Positions 5,135 to 43,619 of a stretch of 64,000 nucleotides of DNA are shown one piece after another (within the stretch, counting starts at the first letter, position 1; every line of letters starts with the position of its first letter). Both the position numbers and the translations under genes were made by a program. The DNA is taken from positions 33,265 to 97,264 of IMG/VR virus record IMGVR_UViG_3300028392_000045; one strand, given 5' to 3'. The notes below the pieces were generated by a model. The model ran no database searches and was not told where the DNA came from. It worked only from the letters and a program-made list of their open reading frames with translations. This stretch comes from a virus.

Positions 5135-6073
5135 TTAAAGTTCTAATTCGTAATCTTCTAAATTCAATCCTCCAGTCTGATAATTTTCTTGCTTACTTGT
5201 AGCAGAAGAACCAGACCAGTAATTTTTTATTTTATCTGCTACTTTTTTTGTAGTAGTAGAAAAAGCTTGCCTAGAATATCTTTCTAAATCTAGTTTGCCA
5301 TCAGCATAATGTCTTACAAAATCTACTAAATAAGGAAGTGTTTTAGGATCTTTGATCATAGCTGTAATCTTGTTACTAAAGTTACCTGATTGTAATTCAG
5401 TAGCTACTTTAGTTTTTACATCTTTTGACCAGTTCAATTCCTTGACAGTTTCTACAAAACCTTCAATTACTCTAGCTTGTTCTTCTTCAGATTCTTTCTT
5501 TTCATCTTTAGCTTGAGCTACACGATCTTTAACTGTATTAGAGACCAAATTCTGATTCTTAGCAAAAGCTCGTTTAGCTGCTTTTTCTAGTTTATCTCTG
5601 TACTTCAAATCTTCAATCTCCTCTTCAATTTCATCTTCATCTACTCCATCTTCCTTCAATACCTTACGCATAAATGCTTCTTGATCTTCTGGGTTGTCTA
5701 TATCAAACACAGAAGAATCAACAAGATTCAATACTTCTTTAAGTTCTGTAATGGTAAAGTCTTTGCCTTTAGTAAGTACTAGGTCAATAAGAGGTTGGGC
5801 AAAGTCAGGAGCTTTGGAAATGATGTCTGATTCAAATTGCTCAATAGCTTGAGTATATTGGAGATCTAAAAGATTTTGTAGACCTTCAGCAGTACCATCA
5901 AATTCTTGATCTACTGTAAGAAAGCCTTTGTCTTTGTAGTACTCATAAGCTGCTGTCGCATTAGGATCAAGTACTTGCTCTTGTCCTTCTGGTAACTCTT
6001 CCTCATGAGTCGCTTCGGTGGATTCAATCTGATCATCTGTGATCTCAAAATCCGGTAGGAATTCATTCTGCAT
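5135..6073 (-). CDS. Probable capsid scaffolding protein
   Basis: 312 residues, strongly acidic at both ends (MQNEFLPDFEITDDQIEST; C-terminal LNLEDYELEL), with long charged helical and coiled-coil-prone stretches in the middle (DEDEIEEEIEDLKYRDKLEKA). There are no cysteines and no catalytic motif. An acidic helical protein between portal and major capsid genes is the standard position of the scaffold. Whether it carries a protease is not apparent. The call rests on composition and synteny. Confidence 0.7.
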   Translation of the reverse strand: MQNEFLPDFEITDDQIESTEATHEEELPEGQEQVLDPNATAAYEYYKDKGFLTVDQEFDGTAEGLQNLLDLQYTQAIEQFESDIISKAPDFAQPLIDLVLTKGKDFTITELKEVLNLVDSSVFDIDNPEDQEAFMRKVLKEDGVDEDEIEEEIEDLKYRDKLEKAAKRAFAKNQNLVSNTVKDRVAQAKDEKKESEEEQARVIEGFVETVKELNWSKDVKTKVATELQSGNFSNKITAMIKDPKTLPYLVDFVRHYADGKLDLERYSRQAFSTTTKKVADKIKNYWSGSSATSKQENYQTGGLNLEDYELEL

Positions 6074-6147
6074 ACAAATCTATATTAAATAATGAAACAA
6101 TGTTTTACTTTTTAGATGTTTTATTAACAGTTCTATTAGTCTGATAG

Positions 6148-8628
6148 CTAAGACTTCTTTGTCTTAGCAGTCTTCTGCCTATTTGCTTTAGCTTGCTGTG
6201 CTATCTTTTGTTCCTCTAATTGAATCTTTTTTACAGCAAGCATAGTCTCAACTCCATCATTAATGCCGTTTTTATCAACATCTTTGTCAGGTGAGAAGTC
6301 AGAAGTTTTTAAAGCTGCTATTTCGGCATCTCTATCTTTAATCAAATTAATTTCTTCAAGCTTGTTAGCATGTTGTTTATCCAGAGCATCTTGTTTAGTT
6401 TTTTCAAGATTAGTAGCCTGCTCATAAGCTTGTTTCTGCATAGCTTCTGCTTGCTCTCTTTGCTTCTTAGCAGAGATAACTAGCATCTTATGTACTTTCT
6501 CTGGACTCTCACCTCTAGTAATAGCCATCACCAACTCAGATATAATTTCTACACCTTCTCCTCTATTCTGAGCTAAAGGCTGTAATCCAAGTTGTAATAT
6601 AGTTCTTCTATAATCCTCATTGTAAGTAGTGTCAGAAAGGTAAATACCTAGTCCTTCATTATCTAAATACTCTGGTTTGATTGTCAATAACTTTTTAGAG
6701 CCATCAGGTAGATTGTAGTTTAGGTAACATTGCTCTACATCAGGATTATCTTCAAAGTAGTTCTTGTAGTAAGTAGTAAACTGAGATAAATATTCATTGA
6801 GTACACTCTTCATCAAATCATTATGTACATGATAATACTCTTCAGTCATCGTATAAGAAGAAGTAACTGCTGCTTGATTATCAGTTACATTAGATGAAGC
6901 TGAATACATACCAGTAGCTTGAATAGGAACAAGCATCTCTAAACCCATTTGTCTATCTAATAGATCTAATAAGTTTTGCATATTTACTATTTCAGCAATA
7001 GATCCAGCTACTTCAGCTCTTACAGGAGATGTTTTTTGATAATCAGGTAGACCATTAGCATTTTCATTAGAGTCATAGTAGCTATCACCTAGTGCTCTTC
7101 TAAAGTGTCTCCATATTGAAAGTTTATCTGCACCTTCATACAGTGGTTGACCATTTTCATCTAGTGCTAAGTAGTCAGGTATTTTAGAAGCATCAATAGA
7201 CTTAATAAACCCTTCATACTTAGAAAGTTCTCTAAGCTGTAAATCCTTTACAAAGATATACTGCATCAAGGTAGATACAGCTCTTTGTACTAATGAGATA
7301 GGTTCAGCATTTAAAGAGGTAAATATTCTACCTTTTAGTGATAGTTCAAAATCATAAGGATTGTCTATATTAATAGGTTGATTAGGAACCTCTCTACGGT
7401 CTACAATAATATCAGAATATCTAGTACACTCATATCTTCTTGGTATCCATAGAATCTCTGCATAAATAGCATTACCTCTATCATCAATCCATTCATATTT
7501 CTTAGACTGTCTTCCCCATTTGTTGGTAAAAATAGTAGTAACAGCCTGTTTAGGTATTTCAAAATCAGCAGAAACAATTTCAGTTAATACTTCTCCATAC
7601 TCATCAATAGACGTTAGGAAAATAACTTCTCTAAAAGCCTTAAACTGAAATTTAGTTTTCCATAAAAGCCTACTAGATTGTAGTCTGTTAGAGTTATTAG
7701 ATCCAGTATTCTGCCCAATATATCTTTCATCAAACTGTCTACGCTCATATGCTTCTTCTACAGACAAGTAGTTCATCTGCATCTTAGACTGATTCGAAGT
7801 AACATCCCATGCTTTATTAGGTGAGATTTGAGTAGCAGAAGTATAAGTTCCTAATCTATCTAATTCTTCTTGTGATACTTTATCCATCAAGTCATCATAT
7901 GCTTCAGATAAAGTAACAGCAGTTCTTACCCACCAGAAATCTCCTTTTTCTACTTTACTCTCATCAGGTGATTTGTGAAAACCTACATTTAAAGTATTGT
8001 ATACTACAGGTTCAGGAATACCATTGTTTTCTGCTATGTCTATAAAACACATATCAGCAGCTAGTACATGCTTAAACGAAAGGCTTTTAATTCTTTTAAT
8101 GTCAAACTTAGCTTTAAAATACTCCAAGACATCAGAGTAAAAAATTTCCATAGAAGATTTAAAGCTAGTAACATCTTGTTCTTGTGGCTTTACTCTTTGT
8201 TCTTCTGGTACTTCTTGTACAGCTTGAGCTAGATACTCCTCTACTTTCTCTGATAATAAGTCAGTAAGTTCCTGATCTTTTCTTTTGTTATCTCTATCTC
8301 CAAGGAGTAGCACATCAAAATTAGTTCCTCTTTTTAGCATTTCACCAAGTAGGAACATATAATACTTAAATAAAGGATTGAATACTACAATTTCTCTATC
8401 TTCTTCAAAAGGTAATTTGAATACACTATTTTCAGGTGAGCAGAATTTCTGAATATTTTTTTGGATGTAGGTAATATCATTATTGATAATAGCATAAATC
8501 ATCCTTCTATTCTGATAGGAATCTAATTGAGTATTATGTTGAGGGACAATAGAATCCATAACTGCTTTGTACCAGTCTTGGTTCTTATCCTTATCTTTTA
8601 CTTTTAAGCTATATCTAATGTCGGGCAT
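6148..8628 (-). CDS. Portal protein
   Basis: 826 residues, in the portal position between TerL and scaffold. The central part is the portal body, and the C terminus has a long coiled coil rich in Lys, Gln and Glu (from about residue 715, for example KQREQAEAMQKQAYEQATN) ending KTAKTKKS, with a TAG stop. The length agrees with crAss-like portals, which carry long C-terminal extensions. The start overlaps the end of TerL by 14 bp. An 8-bp perfect stem with a 6-nt loop (6147-6168) covers the last codons and stop. Confidence 0.85.
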   Translation of the reverse strand: MPDIRYSLKVKDKDKNQDWYKAVMDSIVPQHNTQLDSYQNRRMIYAIINNDITYIQKNIQKFCSPENSVFKLPFEEDREIVVFNPLFKYYMFLLGEMLKRGTNFDVLLLGDRDNKRKDQELTDLLSEKVEEYLAQAVQEVPEEQRVKPQEQDVTSFKSSMEIFYSDVLEYFKAKFDIKRIKSLSFKHVLAADMCFIDIAENNGIPEPVVYNTLNVGFHKSPDESKVEKGDFWWVRTAVTLSEAYDDLMDKVSQEELDRLGTYTSATQISPNKAWDVTSNQSKMQMNYLSVEEAYERRQFDERYIGQNTGSNNSNRLQSSRLLWKTKFQFKAFREVIFLTSIDEYGEVLTEIVSADFEIPKQAVTTIFTNKWGRQSKKYEWIDDRGNAIYAEILWIPRRYECTRYSDIIVDRREVPNQPINIDNPYDFELSLKGRIFTSLNAEPISLVQRAVSTLMQYIFVKDLQLRELSKYEGFIKSIDASKIPDYLALDENGQPLYEGADKLSIWRHFRRALGDSYYDSNENANGLPDYQKTSPVRAEVAGSIAEIVNMQNLLDLLDRQMGLEMLVPIQATGMYSASSNVTDNQAAVTSSYTMTEEYYHVHNDLMKSVLNEYLSQFTTYYKNYFEDNPDVEQCYLNYNLPDGSKKLLTIKPEYLDNEGLGIYLSDTTYNEDYRRTILQLGLQPLAQNRGEGVEIISELVMAITRGESPEKVHKMLVISAKKQREQAEAMQKQAYEQATNLEKTKQDALDKQHANKLEEINLIKDRDAEIAALKTSDFSPDKDVDKNGINDGVETMLAVKKIQLEEQKIAQQAKANRQKTAKTKKS

Positions 8629-33149: not shown

Positions 33150-34313
33150 ATGATTCACATTGTAACTATAAAAGAGAAGATACCTCTTTTTAAAGGTGAA
33201 GAAAAAGCTAATGCTATTGAAGTTGTATTACTGAATGAGTTTGGATTTGAGCTAGTAACTCAAATGAATAGATTTCAAGTAGGTGATAAAGCTTTACTAG
33301 TAGAGCCTGACTACAACTTGCCTAATATTCCTTTTTGGGCAGATTGGATTAGCCCTAATGGTGATCCTAAAAAATCTAAACTAGGAAGTAATAATCGTAT
33401 TAGAGCTATTAAGTTTAATCTTCATAAAGGAGATGGCATGCCTGTTTATTCTAATGGTATTTTATTGACTCAAGAAGATCTTACTACAGCTCCTATTCCT
33501 GATAAATTAAAGTTTACACTGAACAGTAAATGTACAGAAGAATTTCTTACTAATCTAGGTAAAGAGTATCTAGGAATCTATAAATATGATCCTGAAACCT
33601 CTAATAAAGGTAAAGTAGGAAAAGCTAGAACAACTAAAAAATTACCTGATGGTATGTACAGAACTGATGAAGAGAACTTTAATAAAATTACTCTTACTTA
33701 TCCTATACATCTGATTGGCTCCCTTAAAATTGACGGCAGTTCTTGCTCCATATGGAAAAAAAGTAAACAATCAGGTATCTGTTCTCGAAATCTACAAATT
33801 CCTTTAATGCTTACTAATGTAATAGGTAAGAAAAAAGATATTTGGAGCAAGATTAAATCTTTGTTTGGAGTAGATATTAGTATCTATAAAGAGGAAAAAA
33901 ATACTTCTGAATTTATTACTATAGGAGAGAAGTATTTACAAAGCCTTATAGAATCTGATTACGATAATATTACTTTAAGAGGTGAAATTTATGGTAAAAA
34001 TGGTTCTAAAGGTTCTGGAAATCCTAGAAATCCACATGGTAATAAACCAGGAGATATTTTATTTTATGGTGTAGATGAGTATACTAGTTCTACAAAAAAA
34101 GAACCATATAACAAATTTGTAGAAGTTACTGACAATCTAAGTCTTACTAGATGTCCAGAAATCTTTAATAAAGAATTTTCTACAAGAGAAGAATTAATAC
34201 AAGAGTGTAATCAATATTTTGCAGATAATTTAGTGGAAGGTATCGTAATCCGTACTCCCGATTCTTCTATTTCTGCAAAAATTATGAACTTGGAGTATGA
34301 TTCAAAAAAGTAA
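33150..34313 (+). CDS. RNA ligase-like nucleotidyltransferase (OB-fold N-terminal type)
   Basis: 387 residues. The nucleotidyl lysine is Lys193 in SLKIDGSS. Motif III-like LRGEIYG, motif IV VEGIVIRTP and motif V AKIMN are present. The N-terminal domain (RFQVGDKALLVEPD, NRIRAIKFNLHKG) matches the OB domain of the DraRnl/Rnl5 family more than that of DNA ligases. It may repair nicked RNA, for example tRNAs cut by host defences, or seal DNA. It lies in the replication cluster, so a DNA substrate is not excluded. Confidence 0.75.
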   Translation: MIHIVTIKEKIPLFKGEEKANAIEVVLLNEFGFELVTQMNRFQVGDKALLVEPDYNLPNIPFWADWISPNGDPKKSKLGSNNRIRAIKFNLHKGDGMPVYSNGILLTQEDLTTAPIPDKLKFTLNSKCTEEFLTNLGKEYLGIYKYDPETSNKGKVGKARTTKKLPDGMYRTDEENFNKITLTYPIHLIGSLKIDGSSCSIWKKSKQSGICSRNLQIPLMLTNVIGKKKDIWSKIKSLFGVDISIYKEEKNTSEFITIGEKYLQSLIESDYDNITLRGEIYGKNGSKGSGNPRNPHGNKPGDILFYGVDEYTSSTKKEPYNKFVEVTDNLSLTRCPEIFNKEFSTREELIQECNQYFADNLVEGIVIRTPDSSISAKIMNLEYDSKK

Positions 34314-36068: not shown

Positions 36069-36941
36069 ATGAATGTCTTAAAAACAACTGCACAGAAACT
36101 AGAATCTATAGATCAATTAGAAGTATGGCGTAATATTTTAAATATGCCATTTCTTCAAATAGGGGAAAAATTCAGAAACCCATTTAGAATAGATAATAGT
36201 CCAGGTTGTGTATTAAGAGTTCGTGGTGGGAATATATTAATGTATGATATGGCTAGTATACAGTTTAGATGTATGAATTGTATGCAAGCTTTACAGTATG
36301 TTAATAGACCAATCAACTTAGACTATACTAATCATAAAAAATATGAGGAAAAACCTTTTAAGTTCCTCATAAATTATATTAAAAAGGATTACACTAAGAA
36401 TGATCAAGCTTATTGGGGTCAATACGGCATTAGCCTGGAACAGTTAGAGCAGGAATCCGTAGATTCAGTATACCAATACTCTTTTAATTCTAAGAAACAT
36501 CCTGATAAAATAGAAACACTATATCCCTTAGGGTATACTTATTGTATAAATGTAGTTGAACGTAAAAAGATATATCGGCCATATAGCAAGCATTCAAGAT
36601 TTTTATCTGATTTTTCTCCTCTTACTATCGGAGGTAATACTCCAATTACAAGCCCACTAATCTATACCAAGTCTTTTAAAGACTATGCGGTACTAACCAA
36701 CTTTGGCTATAGTTCAAGATTTATACACTGTGAGAATGTACTCAATCCACCTAAAGATGGGATTTATCTAGTGGATAATGATGCTCCTGGATTGAAGTAT
36801 AGAGATTATCTTAACTCAAATGGGTATATAGCTTTTACATTGCCAGTTGGTTATCCTAAAGATCCTAGTGATTGTTATAGATTTTTAGGCGAGGGGAAAA
36901 CTAAATCATTATTACATGACTGTATTTCAGCTAATCTCTGA
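36069..36941 (+). CDS. DNA primase (TOPRIM type)
   Basis: 290 residues. The N-terminal part resembles a DnaG-like zinc and catalytic start (FRNPFRIDNSPGCVLRV, FRCMNCMQAL). The TOPRIM Asp pair is in YLVDNDAPGLKY, with PKDPSDCYRF later, as in phage primases. It makes primers for the family A polymerase. The short length suggests no fused helicase, consistent with the separate DnaB-like gene. It overlaps the following small gene by 26 bp. Confidence 0.75.
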   Translation: MNVLKTTAQKLESIDQLEVWRNILNMPFLQIGEKFRNPFRIDNSPGCVLRVRGGNILMYDMASIQFRCMNCMQALQYVNRPINLDYTNHKKYEEKPFKFLINYIKKDYTKNDQAYWGQYGISLEQLEQESVDSVYQYSFNSKKHPDKIETLYPLGYTYCINVVERKKIYRPYSKHSRFLSDFSPLTIGGNTPITSPLIYTKSFKDYAVLTNFGYSSRFIHCENVLNPPKDGIYLVDNDAPGLKYRDYLNSNGYIAFTLPVGYPKDPSDCYRFLGEGKTKSLLHDCISANL

Positions 36942-37129: not shown

Positions 37130-37765
37130 ATGGCTAAGTTAATGATATTCAGCACTCGCGGTAATGCGAAGGTTGAAGGTGTTACTATTAATACAGTGCA
37201 AGACATCCTAGATGCTGCTCACAAAGAGAGCATGGTTCCTGATAACTATAGTATGGCTATCGTCTTCAAAACTGATTCTGGTCGTTCTAACATTATGGAT
37301 GCGCATCCTGAATCTACTATTCCAGCGGCAGACAGCTACATTGTTACTTTCAGTTTGAAAGATGTAAAAGCTGCTTCTGAAGGTAGTTTGCAAAATCAAG
37401 TACAATCTTTTCTTGATACTGATACAAGAAGTGCATTGTATCTAGCTATTAAAACGATTCAGAATTCTGATAGTCCAGAAGAATTGCTTGGCTTGTTTAC
37501 AGCAGAAATTGGTAACTATACCAATCAGAAAACTGCATATCTACGGGAGAAGATTCAGTGGTTTCTGGAAGAACTTAACAAAGAAGAAGCTAGTTCTTCT
37601 GATGCTTGGTTTTCTGATGAATATATTCAAGCTATTTATAATAAACTTAATACTATTGAAGAGACTGTATTATCTCTAAAAAATGCTGTAATTGATCTTG
37701 GTATTAATGCTGGTTATCTTGCAAAAGGATACGAAGAAGAAATTGCAAAAGAGTTATTGAAGTAA
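37130..37765 (+). CDS. Candidate ubiquitin-like (beta-grasp) protein with C-terminal helical domain
   Basis: 211 residues. Residues 2-80 have beta-grasp order: strand AKLMIFSTRG, strand KVEGVTI, helix TVQDILDAAHKES, strand MAIVFKTDSG, and final strand DSYIVTFSLKD, similar to MoaD/ThiS and PRTRC-type Ubls. Residues 85-211 are helical and acidic. The protein does not end in Gly-Gly, so conjugation would need processing, or it may act as a scaffold. Codons are balanced. It precedes E2-like, JAMM and E1 genes, which is the main support for the call. Confidence 0.45.
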   Translation: MAKLMIFSTRGNAKVEGVTINTVQDILDAAHKESMVPDNYSMAIVFKTDSGRSNIMDAHPESTIPAADSYIVTFSLKDVKAASEGSLQNQVQSFLDTDTRSALYLAIKTIQNSDSPEELLGLFTAEIGNYTNQKTAYLREKIQWFLEELNKEEASSSDAWFSDEYIQAIYNKLNTIEETVLSLKNAVIDLGINAGYLAKGYEEEIAKELLK

Positions 37766-37801
37766 TATTCATGTTTTGTTTTTGGATTTAATTGGTTATT
37801 C

Positions 37802-37832
37802 GAGGTAGGACTTAAAACCCCTACCTCTTTTT
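37802..37832 (+). terminator. Rho-independent terminator between Ubl and E2-like genes
   Basis: GAGGTAGG and CCTACCTC form a perfect 8-bp stem with a 10-nt loop, followed by TTTTT, 9 bp before the next start. It may reduce expression of the enzymes relative to the Ubl. Confidence 0.75.
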
Positions 37833-37840
37833 CTTATTCT

Positions 37841-38581
37841 ATGGAAGAAAGAGAAGCTATTGAAGAATTGCTTGAAACGTTATATCCTGATAACTGGGAA
37901 ATAACTTTTGAGGGAAATTATATCTGGAAAAGAGAAAATATAGAAATTATAGATCTTAATAAAAATGAGCTATACGATACGATAGATATTATTTTTACAA
38001 GAATGAGTTTAGATTCTGATAATCGTTCTAAGTTTTCATTTTGTAGACTAGATAGAAAAGCTACAGATCCTCGTTATCAGCACCCACACTTTAAAGGTGC
38101 TATAAAAATGGCAGACGTATTCTGTACTGGAAAGTATGTAACAGGATTGCCAATTTCAGACATTATCTACTTTGATAGTTATATGAAATGTTACAATTCT
38201 GGTAGTGGTTATACTATACAAAGTGATTTAACTAAATCTAATGTCTCTACAGCAATTAATGAATACTTATATCCTGAATTCTTTTTCAACTATGAGACAG
38301 ACTGGATAGATGTAAGAACTAAGTGTGATTTGACATTAGAAGAGTTTCAGAAGTTTGTCATACTAGACACGAATTATGAGTCTTTTACAGTATACTTTAA
38401 AGGTGTAAAGTATGACTCTTATTTAACTATTCCAGAAGCTAATCTATACGAAAAACTATTTCATAAGTTTTTACTAAACAAAAAACTAAATTTAAATGAC
38501 AACCTTAAACATTACGCCGAGCTTTTGGCAGCAAGCCATGTACCTGAACAAGAAGTTTCCGAACTTGGAATGGTCGGGTGA
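37841..38581 (+). CDS. E2-like candidate of the Ubl cassette
   Basis: 246 residues. After an N-terminal helix and strands comes RYQHPHFKGAIKMADVFCTG (79-98): the His-Pro-His and the Cys95 that follows resemble the HPN and catalytic Cys of E2 enzymes and of the PRTRC-B/Bil-type prokaryotic E2-like proteins. The rest is alpha/beta with a helical C terminus. The call rests on this motif and on the neighbouring JAMM and E1 genes. It overlaps the JAMM gene by 86 bp. Confidence 0.45.
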   Translation: MEEREAIEELLETLYPDNWEITFEGNYIWKRENIEIIDLNKNELYDTIDIIFTRMSLDSDNRSKFSFCRLDRKATDPRYQHPHFKGAIKMADVFCTGKYVTGLPISDIIYFDSYMKCYNSGSGYTIQSDLTKSNVSTAINEYLYPEFFFNYETDWIDVRTKCDLTLEEFQKFVILDTNYESFTVYFKGVKYDSYLTIPEANLYEKLFHKFLLNKKLNLNDNLKHYAELLAASHVPEQEVSELGMVG

Positions 38582-39503
38582 GCTATTATATAAAGTAGAG
38601 GGAGAAGCTACAAAAGAGACCTTTACTCCTATGCATATTATTCCACTTGATCTAGGAGATAAAGCCTACACTACTTTTAAAGATTCAGGTGTACTTGCAG
38701 AACTTATTGCAGATAATGAAGAATACTTTGATTACAAACGTGGTATGATTCATTCTCATAATACTATGCAAACTAATTTTAGTAATACTGATATTACTCA
38801 ATTGGACGATGGAGCAAAAGAATCAGATTTCTTTCTATCTGTTATTGTCAATAACGCTAATAATGTTACTGCAAAAGTAGCTAGAAAAACCATTACAGGA
38901 TTTTATACTAAAGTAGTAGAATCTTGGAACAATGGAAGAAAAGTAACTACTATGATTGACGTACCAGAAAAAGAAGAAATATTTGTACAAGACATTGAAG
39001 TAAGGTTTCACTATACTGAACTACCTGAATGGTTTACTCAAAAAGCTAATGCTCTAAAGCAAAAACCAAAACCAATAGTAAAACCTTTTACTGCTTTTGA
39101 TTATGGTAATAGAGGATTTAGCAATGGTCATACTAAAGGTTACAATGGTTATCAACCTAAAGAGGTTATCAAACATAATTCATTATCAAGTATCTATTTA
39201 GATGTAGATGAAGAACATATTTTAGATTTCTTTAAGCTGACTAATACAAAACAATTAAAAGATAAACTTACAGAGGCTACTGCTCAAACAGTATTAGAGT
39301 TTGTTGACTTTTATGAAAAAAGATTAGAATCAGACAAGAAAGACAATATTGCTGACCAAGATCAAACTCTGATAGAAGGACTAGAAGATGTTTTAGGCTA
39401 TTTAATGCTTGATTACACTAATACTCCTTTTTATAAAGAGCTACAGAAATTTATTTTTGAATTGGAACAATTAGAGAAAAATGACATCAACGTTGAGATT
39501 TAG
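38496..39503 (+). CDS. JAMM/JAB metalloprotease (deubiquitinase-like)
   Basis: 335 residues. The JAMM motif is exact: Glu25 in EWSGE, then His86-Ser-His88, seven residues, Ser96, two residues, Asp99 (GMIHSHNTMQTNFSNTD). Such zinc proteases remove or process ubiquitin-like proteins. The C-terminal 200 residues form a separate region with an acidic helical end. The TAG stop is 23 bp into the E1 gene. The long 86-bp overlap with the E2-like gene keeps the N-terminal helix that precedes the JAMM domain. Confidence 0.85.
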   Translation: MTTLNITPSFWQQAMYLNKKFPNLEWSGELLYKVEGEATKETFTPMHIIPLDLGDKAYTTFKDSGVLAELIADNEEYFDYKRGMIHSHNTMQTNFSNTDITQLDDGAKESDFFLSVIVNNANNVTAKVARKTITGFYTKVVESWNNGRKVTTMIDVPEKEEIFVQDIEVRFHYTELPEWFTQKANALKQKPKPIVKPFTAFDYGNRGFSNGHTKGYNGYQPKEVIKHNSLSSIYLDVDEEHILDFFKLTNTKQLKDKLTEATAQTVLEFVDFYEKRLESDKKDNIADQDQTLIEGLEDVLGYLMLDYTNTPFYKELQKFIFELEQLEKNDINVEI

Positions 39504-40101
39504 CACCGCGCCTTGGTATGGTACATTTAAGGATATTACTATAATTGGATTGGGAGGTGTTGGCAATGGCCTAGCTCGTATTTTAGCATTAAATGGACAT
39601 AGACTATCTATTTACGACTACGATGACGTAGAAGAGCATAACTGTATCCCACAGGGTTATCCTAGAAAGTATATTGGAGTATCAAAATACGCTGCTTGTA
39701 AATCTATCATTGCTAGTTTTGTAGAGAATTTCTCAGTCGATTGTCATGGCAAATGGGATGATAGTGAATATTTGAGACCTATTGTAATAGCTTGTCCTGA
39801 TAACTTTGACACTAGGATCTCTGCTTTTCAGAAATGGAAAAGAGATAGTGATAGAGAATTGTTTATTTCTGTAGGTTTAACTGGGGATGATTACAAAATT
39901 ATTGTCATTAAAAGAGGAGATGAAGATTTGTTTGATATGCCTTCTGATTCTGTTTCTGATGAGCCTGTAGTATGTACTAATAGGCAAAGTTTGTATATGG
40001 CTCAAGCTGTACAAGCTAAAGTAGCAGAAATTATTAATAAATTTATCATTGATCCTGATCTAGTAGAAAACACTTATGTTCACAACGGAATCACTGGATA
40101 G
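39481..40101 (+). CDS. ThiF/E1-like adenylyltransferase
   Basis: 206 residues. The nucleotide-binding GLGGVG is at 23-28. IYDYDDVEEHN (44-54) with Gln58 is the E1/ThiF acidic strand motif. Lys69 is in the conserved Ser-Lys, and ACPDNFDTR (104-112) matches the Asp-x-x-x-x-Arg region. Cys165 (VVCTN) is a candidate thioester residue. It should adenylate a Ubl C terminus. It is compact, without a zinc-ribbon or extra Cys domain. The stop is TAG, 26 bp into the next gene. Confidence 0.85.
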   Translation: MTSTLRFSTAPWYGTFKDITIIGLGGVGNGLARILALNGHRLSIYDYDDVEEHNCIPQGYPRKYIGVSKYAACKSIIASFVENFSVDCHGKWDDSEYLRPIVIACPDNFDTRISAFQKWKRDSDRELFISVGLTGDDYKIIVIKRGDEDLFDMPSDSVSDEPVVCTNRQSLYMAQAVQAKVAEIINKFIIDPDLVENTYVHNGITG

Positions 40102-40495
40102 CGTAGTTTATGACTATGATACTGCTTCACGAGTAGAGTTAATAAATTCTAATAGTGTACTACGTGCAGAAATAAATGGAGAGAATTTCTATATTGGCAG
40201 GAATGTTATTAGAAACAATGATAAAGTTGTATTAGTATATTTTAATGATAATAAACTGTATGTCAATTCTTTAGTAGGAAAAGATTTATGGTTTTTAATA
40301 GAAGATCAAGTCTTTTTATTAAAAGAGATTGATAATATTGAGGTTGAAGTTGTTAAGAATTCTGATATTTACAAAATTATGAACTTACCATCAATATCAG
40401 AATTAAATGAGCACGCGCAACAAGAGAGCAGGCTCAGCTTGGAATTATTCCGTCGTCAATCACTTGGCGAAGATTTTTCAGTTGATCCCTTTTAA
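40076..40495 (+). CDS. Protein of unknown function at the end of the Ubl cassette
   Basis: 139 residues, beta-rich, acidic (MFTTESLDSVVYDYDTASRV; NDKVVLVYFNDNKLYV), ending DFSVDPF. It overlaps the E1 gene by 26 bp and the next nuclease gene by 89 bp. It may be a substrate or partner of the Ubl system, which is speculation. Confidence 0.45.
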   Translation: MFTTESLDSVVYDYDTASRVELINSNSVLRAEINGENFYIGRNVIRNNDKVVLVYFNDNKLYVNSLVGKDLWFLIEDQVFLLKEIDNIEVEVVKNSDIYKIMNLPSISELNEHAQQESRLSLELFRRQSLGEDFSVDPF

Positions 40496-42929: not shown

Positions 42930-43185
42930 GCAAACATATGCTTATTCGCATGTCCATTTTAGAGTATTATCAAATAAAGCAGATATTATATTCTGGACTA
43001 TGAACTACAAAATAAAGTCTAAAAAATATAAACAAGCTTTTGAAGTAGACGATAAAATAATTCCTTATTTAGTATTTACTCAAAGTGAATTATATACTGA
43101 AGGACAAATTCTTGTATTTATTAAGAAAGCGTATGAAATTTATTCAGCAGATCTTTTTTATAAAGATTTAAACTGTCATTTATGA
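42919..43185 (+). CDS. Small protein of unknown function
   Basis: 88 residues, MMIEQTYAYSHVHFRVLSNK at the start; alternating strands and Lys-rich turns. Joined by ATGA to the macro-domain gene. No motif. Confidence 0.5.
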   Translation: MMIEQTYAYSHVHFRVLSNKADIIFWTMNYKIKSKKYKQAFEVDDKIIPYLVFTQSELYTEGQILVFIKKAYEIYSADLFYKDLNCHL

Positions 43186-43619
43186 TTGAGTACAAAAAAG
43201 GAGACATTTTTAATTCTGGATGTTATGCTTTTGTAAATCCAGTAAATACAGCAGGAGTTATGGGGAAAGGTCTTGCATTACATTTCAAGAAAAATTTTCC
43301 TATTAATTACCAGACTTACAAATTGGCATGTGATAATCAATCCTTTCAAATAGGACAGTTATTGTATGTTACAGAAAACAAGCATTTGATTATTAACTTT
43401 CCTACTAAAAAAGACTGGAGGCTGAAATCCAACTATGAATACATAGAACTAGGATTAAAAGCTCTTAGACAGTTCCTCTTTGATGCGCAAATTGATTCTA
43501 TAGCTATTCCTGCTATAGGCTGTGGAGAAGGTGGATTACTTTGGAGTAAGGTGAAACTAATGATAGAAAAATATTTAGGAATTTTAGAATGTAAAATTGT
43601 AGTATATGAACCTAATTAA
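43182..43619 (+). CDS. DarG-like macro domain protein
   Basis: 145 residues, a complete macro domain. NPVNTAGVMGKGLALHFK (19-36), IINFPTKKDWR (70-80) and IPAIGCGEGGL (109-119) are the signatures of the DarG subgroup, which removes ADP-ribose from thymidine in DNA and counters the DarT toxin. The protein lacks the C-terminal DarT-binding domain, so it is an enzyme only. In a phage it would protect DNA from DarT-based defence. It follows a run of small genes with ATGA coupling. Confidence 0.88.
   Translation: MIEYKKGDIFNSGCYAFVNPVNTAGVMGKGLALHFKKNFPINYQTYKLACDNQSFQIGQLLYVTENKHLIINFPTKKDWRLKSNYEYIELGLKALRQFLFDAQIDSIAIPAIGCGEGGLLWSKVKLMIEKYLGILECKIVVYEPN

Follow-up and report, generated by a model that had tools for sequence, protein, structure and literature searches.

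What do four small genes packed beside the primase gene of a crAss-like phage accomplish together, given that they resemble, piece by piece, the components of a ubiquitin-like conjugation pathway? Crass-like phages are a group that includes abundant human gut phages. The window, which is the whole stretch of 64,000 nucleotides that was analysed, belongs to a viral record of 97,264 bases, assigned to these phages by its major head protein (PHROG 11589, 8e-25) and its portal (PHROG 6547, 2e-40), the nearest relatives of both being crAss-like phage proteins at about 22% identity. Between positions 37130 and 40101 of the plus strand, next to a DNA primase gene (36069-36941, plus strand; PHROG 12622, E=8e-23) that directly precedes the block in most relatives too, the open reading frames show the tight packing of a translationally coupled, operon-like unit: X1 (37130-37765), X2 (37841-38581), a JAMM/MPN+ metalloprotease (38496-39503) and an E1/ThiF-like adenylating enzyme (39481-40101), with overlaps of 86 bases at the X2/JAMM junction and 23 bases at the JAMM/E1 junction. 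A sequence-only reading had described these genes as a phage-borne ubiquitin-like (Ubl) conjugation cassette; the four frames lie as it had described them, every residue that it named is in place (His-Pro-His 81-83 and Cys95 in the second protein; Glu25, His86, His88, Ser96 and Asp99 in the third; GLGGVG and Cys165 in the fourth), and the analysis below supports the presence of a Ubl-JAMM-E1 set whose E2 position is occupied by a Cys/His protein.

The two enzymes provide the firmest ground. At the level of sequence the identity of the JAMM protein is certain, by family match and invariant motif. The motif His86-Ser-His88...Ser96-x-x-Asp99 is encoded at 38751-38792 (plus strand), with Glu25 at 38568-38570, and the aligned residues per column are conserved as E in 165/165, H in 166/167, H in 167/167, S in 169/169 and D in 169/169. 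The protein has a long variable C-terminal part; tblastn links it to 74 phage records, and, while the window copy taken alone falls under the Pfam cut-off (Prok-JAB, 0.017), hhalign joins it to crAss-like JAMMs at 5e-29. The E1/ThiF assignment of the 206-residue product of the last gene is equally certain on family evidence, with PF00899 matched above its cut-off (2e-10). Its nucleotide-binding loop GLGGVG (39547-39564, plus strand) forms the GxGGxG element at residues 23-28 of the superfamily signature, which is completed by adenylation residues and a catalytic Cys (residues 46, 48, 54, 58, 69, 107, 112 and 165). The candidate catalytic cysteine, Cys165 (39973-39975, plus strand), is a cysteine in 160 of the 160 relatives with a residue there, and aligns with the PSCS of the PRTRC ThiF discussed below. 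Overall, about 165 relatives show essentially no variation in the catalytic residues of E1 and JAMM. The E1 family profile matches UBA5 (6e-15), MccB, MoeB, ThiF, Cap2 and BubCD, and no ubiquitin-fold (E2-recruiting) domain is recognisable in the protein. Midpoint rooting of an E1 tree separates the phage E1s, as one clade, from PRTRC ThiF; the window E1 falls within this clade at the end of a very long branch (2.67), and the near-invariant residues IDGR read ISVG in this copy.

X1 and X2 of the window are the most divergent members of their families. Tblastn and single-sequence pattern scans found no relatives of either, single-sequence hhalign of X1, X2 and X5 (the gene that follows E1) against 10-11 crAss proteins gave no match, iterated hmmsearch never reached window X1 or X2, and searches of PDB sequences with both returned chance matches only. 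Their divergence is too great for single-sequence searches, and it took deep family profiles to link them. In hhalign, window X1 matches a 177-sequence X1 family with P=2.6e-5, ranking first among 235 phage proteins (next best 0.003), and window X2 matches a 187-row X2 family with P=2.7e-6, again first among 235 (next best 0.007). Structure models were read at one remove: those of X1 and X2 were made on crAss001 relatives, to which the window proteins are linked by homology.

The modelling predicts a ubiquitin/SUMO beta-grasp fold for the X1 family. In the AlphaFold2 model of crAss001 X1, a confident beta-grasp domain spans residues 1-81 (pLDDT >90 for residues 1-80) and is followed by a flexible stretch with Gly90 and then by a helical part, and Foldseek retrieves SUMO and ubiquitin with a probability of ~1.0 and E-values only near 2e-3. 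The claim that the first protein has a Ubl fold is thus borne out by structure prediction on its family; in the window protein the N-terminal domain covers about residues 1-85 and carries a C-terminal helical extension. Gly90 is the sole invariant column of the family (162/162 sequences); internal, and ahead of the C-terminal extension, it sits just past the last strand, at the point that corresponds to the cleavage site of a ubiquitin tail. Its counterpart in the window is Gly85, at the end of the tail DVKAASEG (37361-37384, plus strand) that corresponds to the (K)SG of the family, and in the register VKAASEG this Gly is set three residues further on than in any relative. Beyond the Ubl domain, the family also conserves the C-terminal helical part and an acidic C-terminal peptide.

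X2 can be called a probable, diverged E2 from its sequence, graded so on position and motif rather than on fold because its model has no fold match in the PDB. The window alignment keeps the family elements Y.H.H, C.G, SGxGY and FKG, the last two having been added by an independent MAFFT alignment. His81-Pro82-His83 (38081-38089, plus strand) aligns with the family Y.HSH, and Cys95 (38123-38125, plus strand), a candidate thioester cysteine, with a Cys present in 170/170 members; conservation in the family reaches 99% for the His (H182), 100% for the Cys (C198) and 100% for a Gly. A His upstream of the Cys is the order that would be right for an E2, whose catalytic Cys has a nearby upstream His motif. 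The crAss001 X2 model (pLDDT 86, pTM 0.79) runs helix-strand-(insert)-three strands-HxH-Cys-two helices, an order compatible with E2s. Foldseek of this model against the PDB returned neither an E2 nor any other match, and among viral models its matches were confined to other crAss-like proteins and to unnamed phage proteins. Of the earlier proposal that the second protein is an E2, therefore, the His...Cys signature and the order of strands and helices stand, and a PDB fold match is missing. X2 carries in addition its own conserved C-terminal FKG domain. A different candidate identity, a degenerate JAMM suggested by the shared 'HSH', was rejected, the profile comparison giving P=0.056 and the zinc Asp and the Ser being missing.

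The slot after E1, occupied in the window by X5 (40076-40495, plus strand), is also filled in crAss-like relatives, where the family HMM matches more than 100 ORFs. Membership of the window X5 in this family is only doubtful (P=0.0034 by profile comparison), and a family match sought for gp75, which holds the slot in crAss001, was not found. X5 could be a substrate or a partner of the cassette.

The order primase - X1 - X2 - JAMM - E1 recurs without a single deviation in 160 loci of related phages, and since the four-gene order is identical in these 160 other loci, the cassette is not a chance arrangement. The overlap of the X2 and JAMM genes is found in 89% of loci. The sequence-only reading had raised the prospect of JAMM and E1 genes standing alone in relatives; they do not, for both are present in 167 of 172 loci (which are not all independent, some coming from identical or near-identical genomes), almost always separated by no more than some tens of bases and in three cases 362-1,276 bases apart, and the five loci with only one of the two lie at contig ends or on short contigs. 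Members of the X1 and X2 families occur in nearly every other locus with room for them. The IMG/VR scans contributed 132 relatives of E1 and 436 of JAMM; 80 of each were kept. In public data, tblastn finds E1 and JAMM in 74 phage records, from Steigviridae crAss-like phages, Flavobacterium Fipvunavirus and a few others, and the crAss001 X2 query also returns 74 records with an identical tally of organisms. In crAss001 the cassette is gp76-gp79, with E1 as gp76 (labelled 'ThiF'), JAMM as gp77 ('metalloprotease'), X2 as gp78 and X1 as gp79. What had been presented as this phage's own version is indeed present, as one copy of a widespread family and not as something peculiar to one phage. Only 2 of 84,980 prokaryote genomes gave a match; both matches lie in metagenome-assembled genomes and are therefore possibly phage sequence. 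Furthermore, the E1, JAMM and X2 profiles all find their targets in crAss001 and FpV4, and none matches in phi14:2, cr113_1, cr130_1 or cr1_1. The block is thus present or absent as a whole in a survey that remote versions can escape, the X2 profile missing the window's own X2; that it is gained or lost as a unit points to a single pathway.

Among known systems, the closest counterpart is PRTRC, defined by NCBIfam families TIGR03734-03738 and corresponding, by our own identification, to the row 6d operons of Iyer 2006 (PMC1779556). On plasmids its order is ParB-E-C(Ubl)-F-B(E2)-A(JAMM)-ThiF(E1), some loci being without A (comparison set of ten plasmid loci plus the first match). The order Ubl-E2-JAMM-E1 is thus common to both, with F placed between C and B in PRTRC. 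Profile-profile comparison relates the phage E1 to PRTRC ThiF at 1.4e-15 and the phage JAMM to PRTRC_A at P=8e-5, with the shared signature HSH..FFS.TD (HSHg..aFFS.TD). Against TIGR03736 the window E1 scores 24.9 bits (E=1.1e-5), below the cut-off of 144.75 bits, which marks it as related and not as a member; TIGR03735 (PRTRC_A), the sole NCBIfam family matched, weakly hits 6 of 10 phage JAMMs (best 9.4e-4) and does not match the window JAMM at E<=1. TIGR03737 (PRTRC B) has no match in the phage's own genome at E<=10 and none is listed for 75 X2 members; X2 against PRTRC_B by profile-profile comparison gives P 0.03-0.085, a chance-level value that the best of 100 shuffles matched, with the alignment anchored on the Cys. 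X1, Ubl in its predicted fold, has no sequence relation to the PRTRC C profile (P=0.33). X1 also differs by its long C-terminal extension and X2 by being much longer than B, no E or F counterparts were seen in the phage block, and ParB (TIGR03734) is absent from the phage's own record, which may be incomplete. The settings are alike, PRTRC lying near DNA-maintenance genes (ParB, SSB) and the phage block near primase and helicase. The proposed link to PRTRC consequently holds for JAMM, E1 and gene order, where the kinship is real, and stops short of membership: the block, which reaches no PRTRC family cut-off, is not PRTRC by definition, but it may work like PRTRC and share its origin.

The likeness to Bil (BilABCD) and Bub consists in a set of Ubl, E2, JAMM deubiquitinase and E1. 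The phage E1 matches BilD weakly (2.5e-5) and BubCD as well, but in Bil the E1 combines a pair of adenylation domains with a Cys domain and BilA contains two Ubl domains (PMC11354881), whereas the phage E1 consists of one short domain and X1 has only one Ubl domain, which places the block outside the definition of Bil. In addition, Bil and Bub are carried by hosts against phages, and this block by phages. CBASS type II offers a homologous E1 domain in Cap2 (hhalign 8e-10) and a JAMM partner, but there Cap2 is a fused E2-E1, the Ubl gene is absent and the CD-NTase itself is conjugated; the Cap3 tested shows no similarity to the phage JAMM (P 0.24). An Acinetobacter plasmid used for comparison was seen to carry a complete CBASS type II operon (phospholipase, CD-NTase, Cap2, Cap3). 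Phages of the lambda/T1 type encode tail assembly proteins I (a Ubl with a C-terminal extension) and K (JAB), for which a cut after a conserved Gly has been proposed (PMC1779556); those belong to tail modules without E1 or E2, whereas the present block lies in the replication module with E1 and X2.

We regard it as fairly probable that the block is a self-contained, phage-specific Ubl-conjugation system, PRTRC-like in gene order, JAMM and E1, that acts on replication or DNA metabolism. Established are the identity of E1 and JAMM with intact catalytic residues, the invariant Gly, the fixed co-inheritance and, as a prediction, the Ubl fold of X1 family members. On this basis X1 would be made as a precursor of Ubl domain and C-terminal helical extension, and JAMM would probably cut it after the conserved Gly, exposing it; BilC likewise cuts BilA and exposes a Gly (PMC11354881). 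E1 would then adenylate the Gly of X1 and hold X1 on Cys165 in a presumed thioester relay, X2 would probably take X1 over on its invariant Cys, the E2 step, and pass it to a target, and JAMM could also undo the tag. Genes for a helicase, an RNA ligase, ERF and the primase precede the cassette and nuclease genes follow it, with a uracil-DNA glycosylase also among the surrounding replication-module genes and the structural module elsewhere. Since the replication module encloses the genes and they are coupled to it, the tag most likely goes to a protein of DNA replication or DNA metabolism, phage or host, and not to the virion; tagging of the virion, which had been put forward earlier, is not favoured for the same reason, the cassette lying among helicase, ERF, primase, uracil-DNA glycosylase and nucleases and not in the structural module. 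For the window copy, conjugation is less sure than for its relatives because its four genes are unusually diverged and its tail Gly is shifted; altered specificity or decay may be at work, and the main catalytic residues remain.

A conserved Ubl with E1 and JAMM could also serve sulfur transfer. E1 would make an X1 thiocarboxylate, as with ThiS, MoaD and CysO, X2 would use the sulfur, and JAMM would free the carrier as in CysO/Mec+, the end product being a modified nucleotide or a cofactor that the phage requires. The short, ThiF-like E1 devoid of a recognisable ubiquitin-fold domain, the presence of ThiF, MoeB, MccB and UBA5 among its solved relatives, the absence of an E2 fold match for X2 and the fact that Ubl, E1 and JAMM without E2 make a typical sulfur-carrier set (Iyer 2006, PMC1779556) all speak for it; yet a Cys that is strictly conserved in E1 and another that is invariant in X2 fit a relay, none of the annotations seen in the blocks names a rhodanese, an IscS-like protein or a sulfurtransferase, and PRTRC, the system with the closest JAMM and the same order of genes, includes an E2-like protein, so that we consider this unlikely.

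Slightly less likely still is a role against host defence, in which the cassette, mainly through JAMM, would strip the Ubl tags of CBASS type II, Bil or Bub, or E1 and Ubl would act as decoys. Host systems of these types are antiphage (PMC10097602, PMC11354881), and the E1 profile matches Cap2, BubCD and the PADLOC E1-E2 and BilD models. JAMM alone would suffice for that purpose, however, and yet the four genes are kept together without exception, in a deeply conserved block embedded in replication genes that has none of the character of a variable accessory island; nor does the JAMM resemble the Cap3 tested, as mentioned above. That X1 and X2 are instead non-covalent replisome scaffolds or regulators, the JAMM and E1 chemistry serving only their maturation or AMP-dependent control, would suit the conserved helical part and acidic peptide of X1, the FKG domain of X2 and the location among replication genes, but is improbable as it leaves the invariant Gly of the X1 tail and the invariant Cys of E1 and X2 unexplained.

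Beyond the conjugation system that we favour, it is conceivable, with doubt outweighing confidence, that many crAss-like phages and their relatives depend on a complete Ubl pathway of their own, inherited as a unit and regulating viral DNA replication, in which X2 would represent a new family of transferases related to E2s distantly or not at all. What is known of Ubl conjugation in bacteria concerns chiefly the defence of hosts against phages; in this case its chemistry would be an ancient, fixed part of phages, including the cultured crAss001 and Flavobacterium phages. A cultured system is hence at hand for direct tests of phage-driven protein tagging, of its target and of the evolution of E1/E2/JAMM circuits, and the finding would bear on the role of the plasmid PRTRC system, whose similar set adjoins DNA-maintenance genes. 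Public labels for the cassette genes are 'thiamine biosynthesis protein', 'metalloprotease' and 'hypothetical', and one deposited genome labels E1 'E1 enzyme family protein'. A search of the open-licence literature, preprints excluded, for crAss-like phages together with ThiF or ubiquitin returned no description, a prior mention elsewhere being possible, and the genome and structure papers on crAss001 do not mention the cassette genes under the terms searched.

Several neighbouring or internal features deserve mention. An RNA ligase family protein (33150-34313, plus strand; PF09414, 2.5e-9) is encoded upstream of the ERF and primase genes. Shortly downstream of the cassette, a macro-domain protein (43182-43619, plus strand; PF01661, 1e-13) is likely to bind or hydrolyse ADP-ribose and is possibly a gene of counter-defence or NAD metabolism. 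Within Fipvunavirus, the JAMM gene is split in many genomes by an insert with a reverse-strand gene (Fpv1 locus 5653-7945; Fpv2, FpV21 and others), annotated as an endonuclease in one record, and is intact in FpV4 and Fpv3; the insert is possibly a homing element within the cassette.
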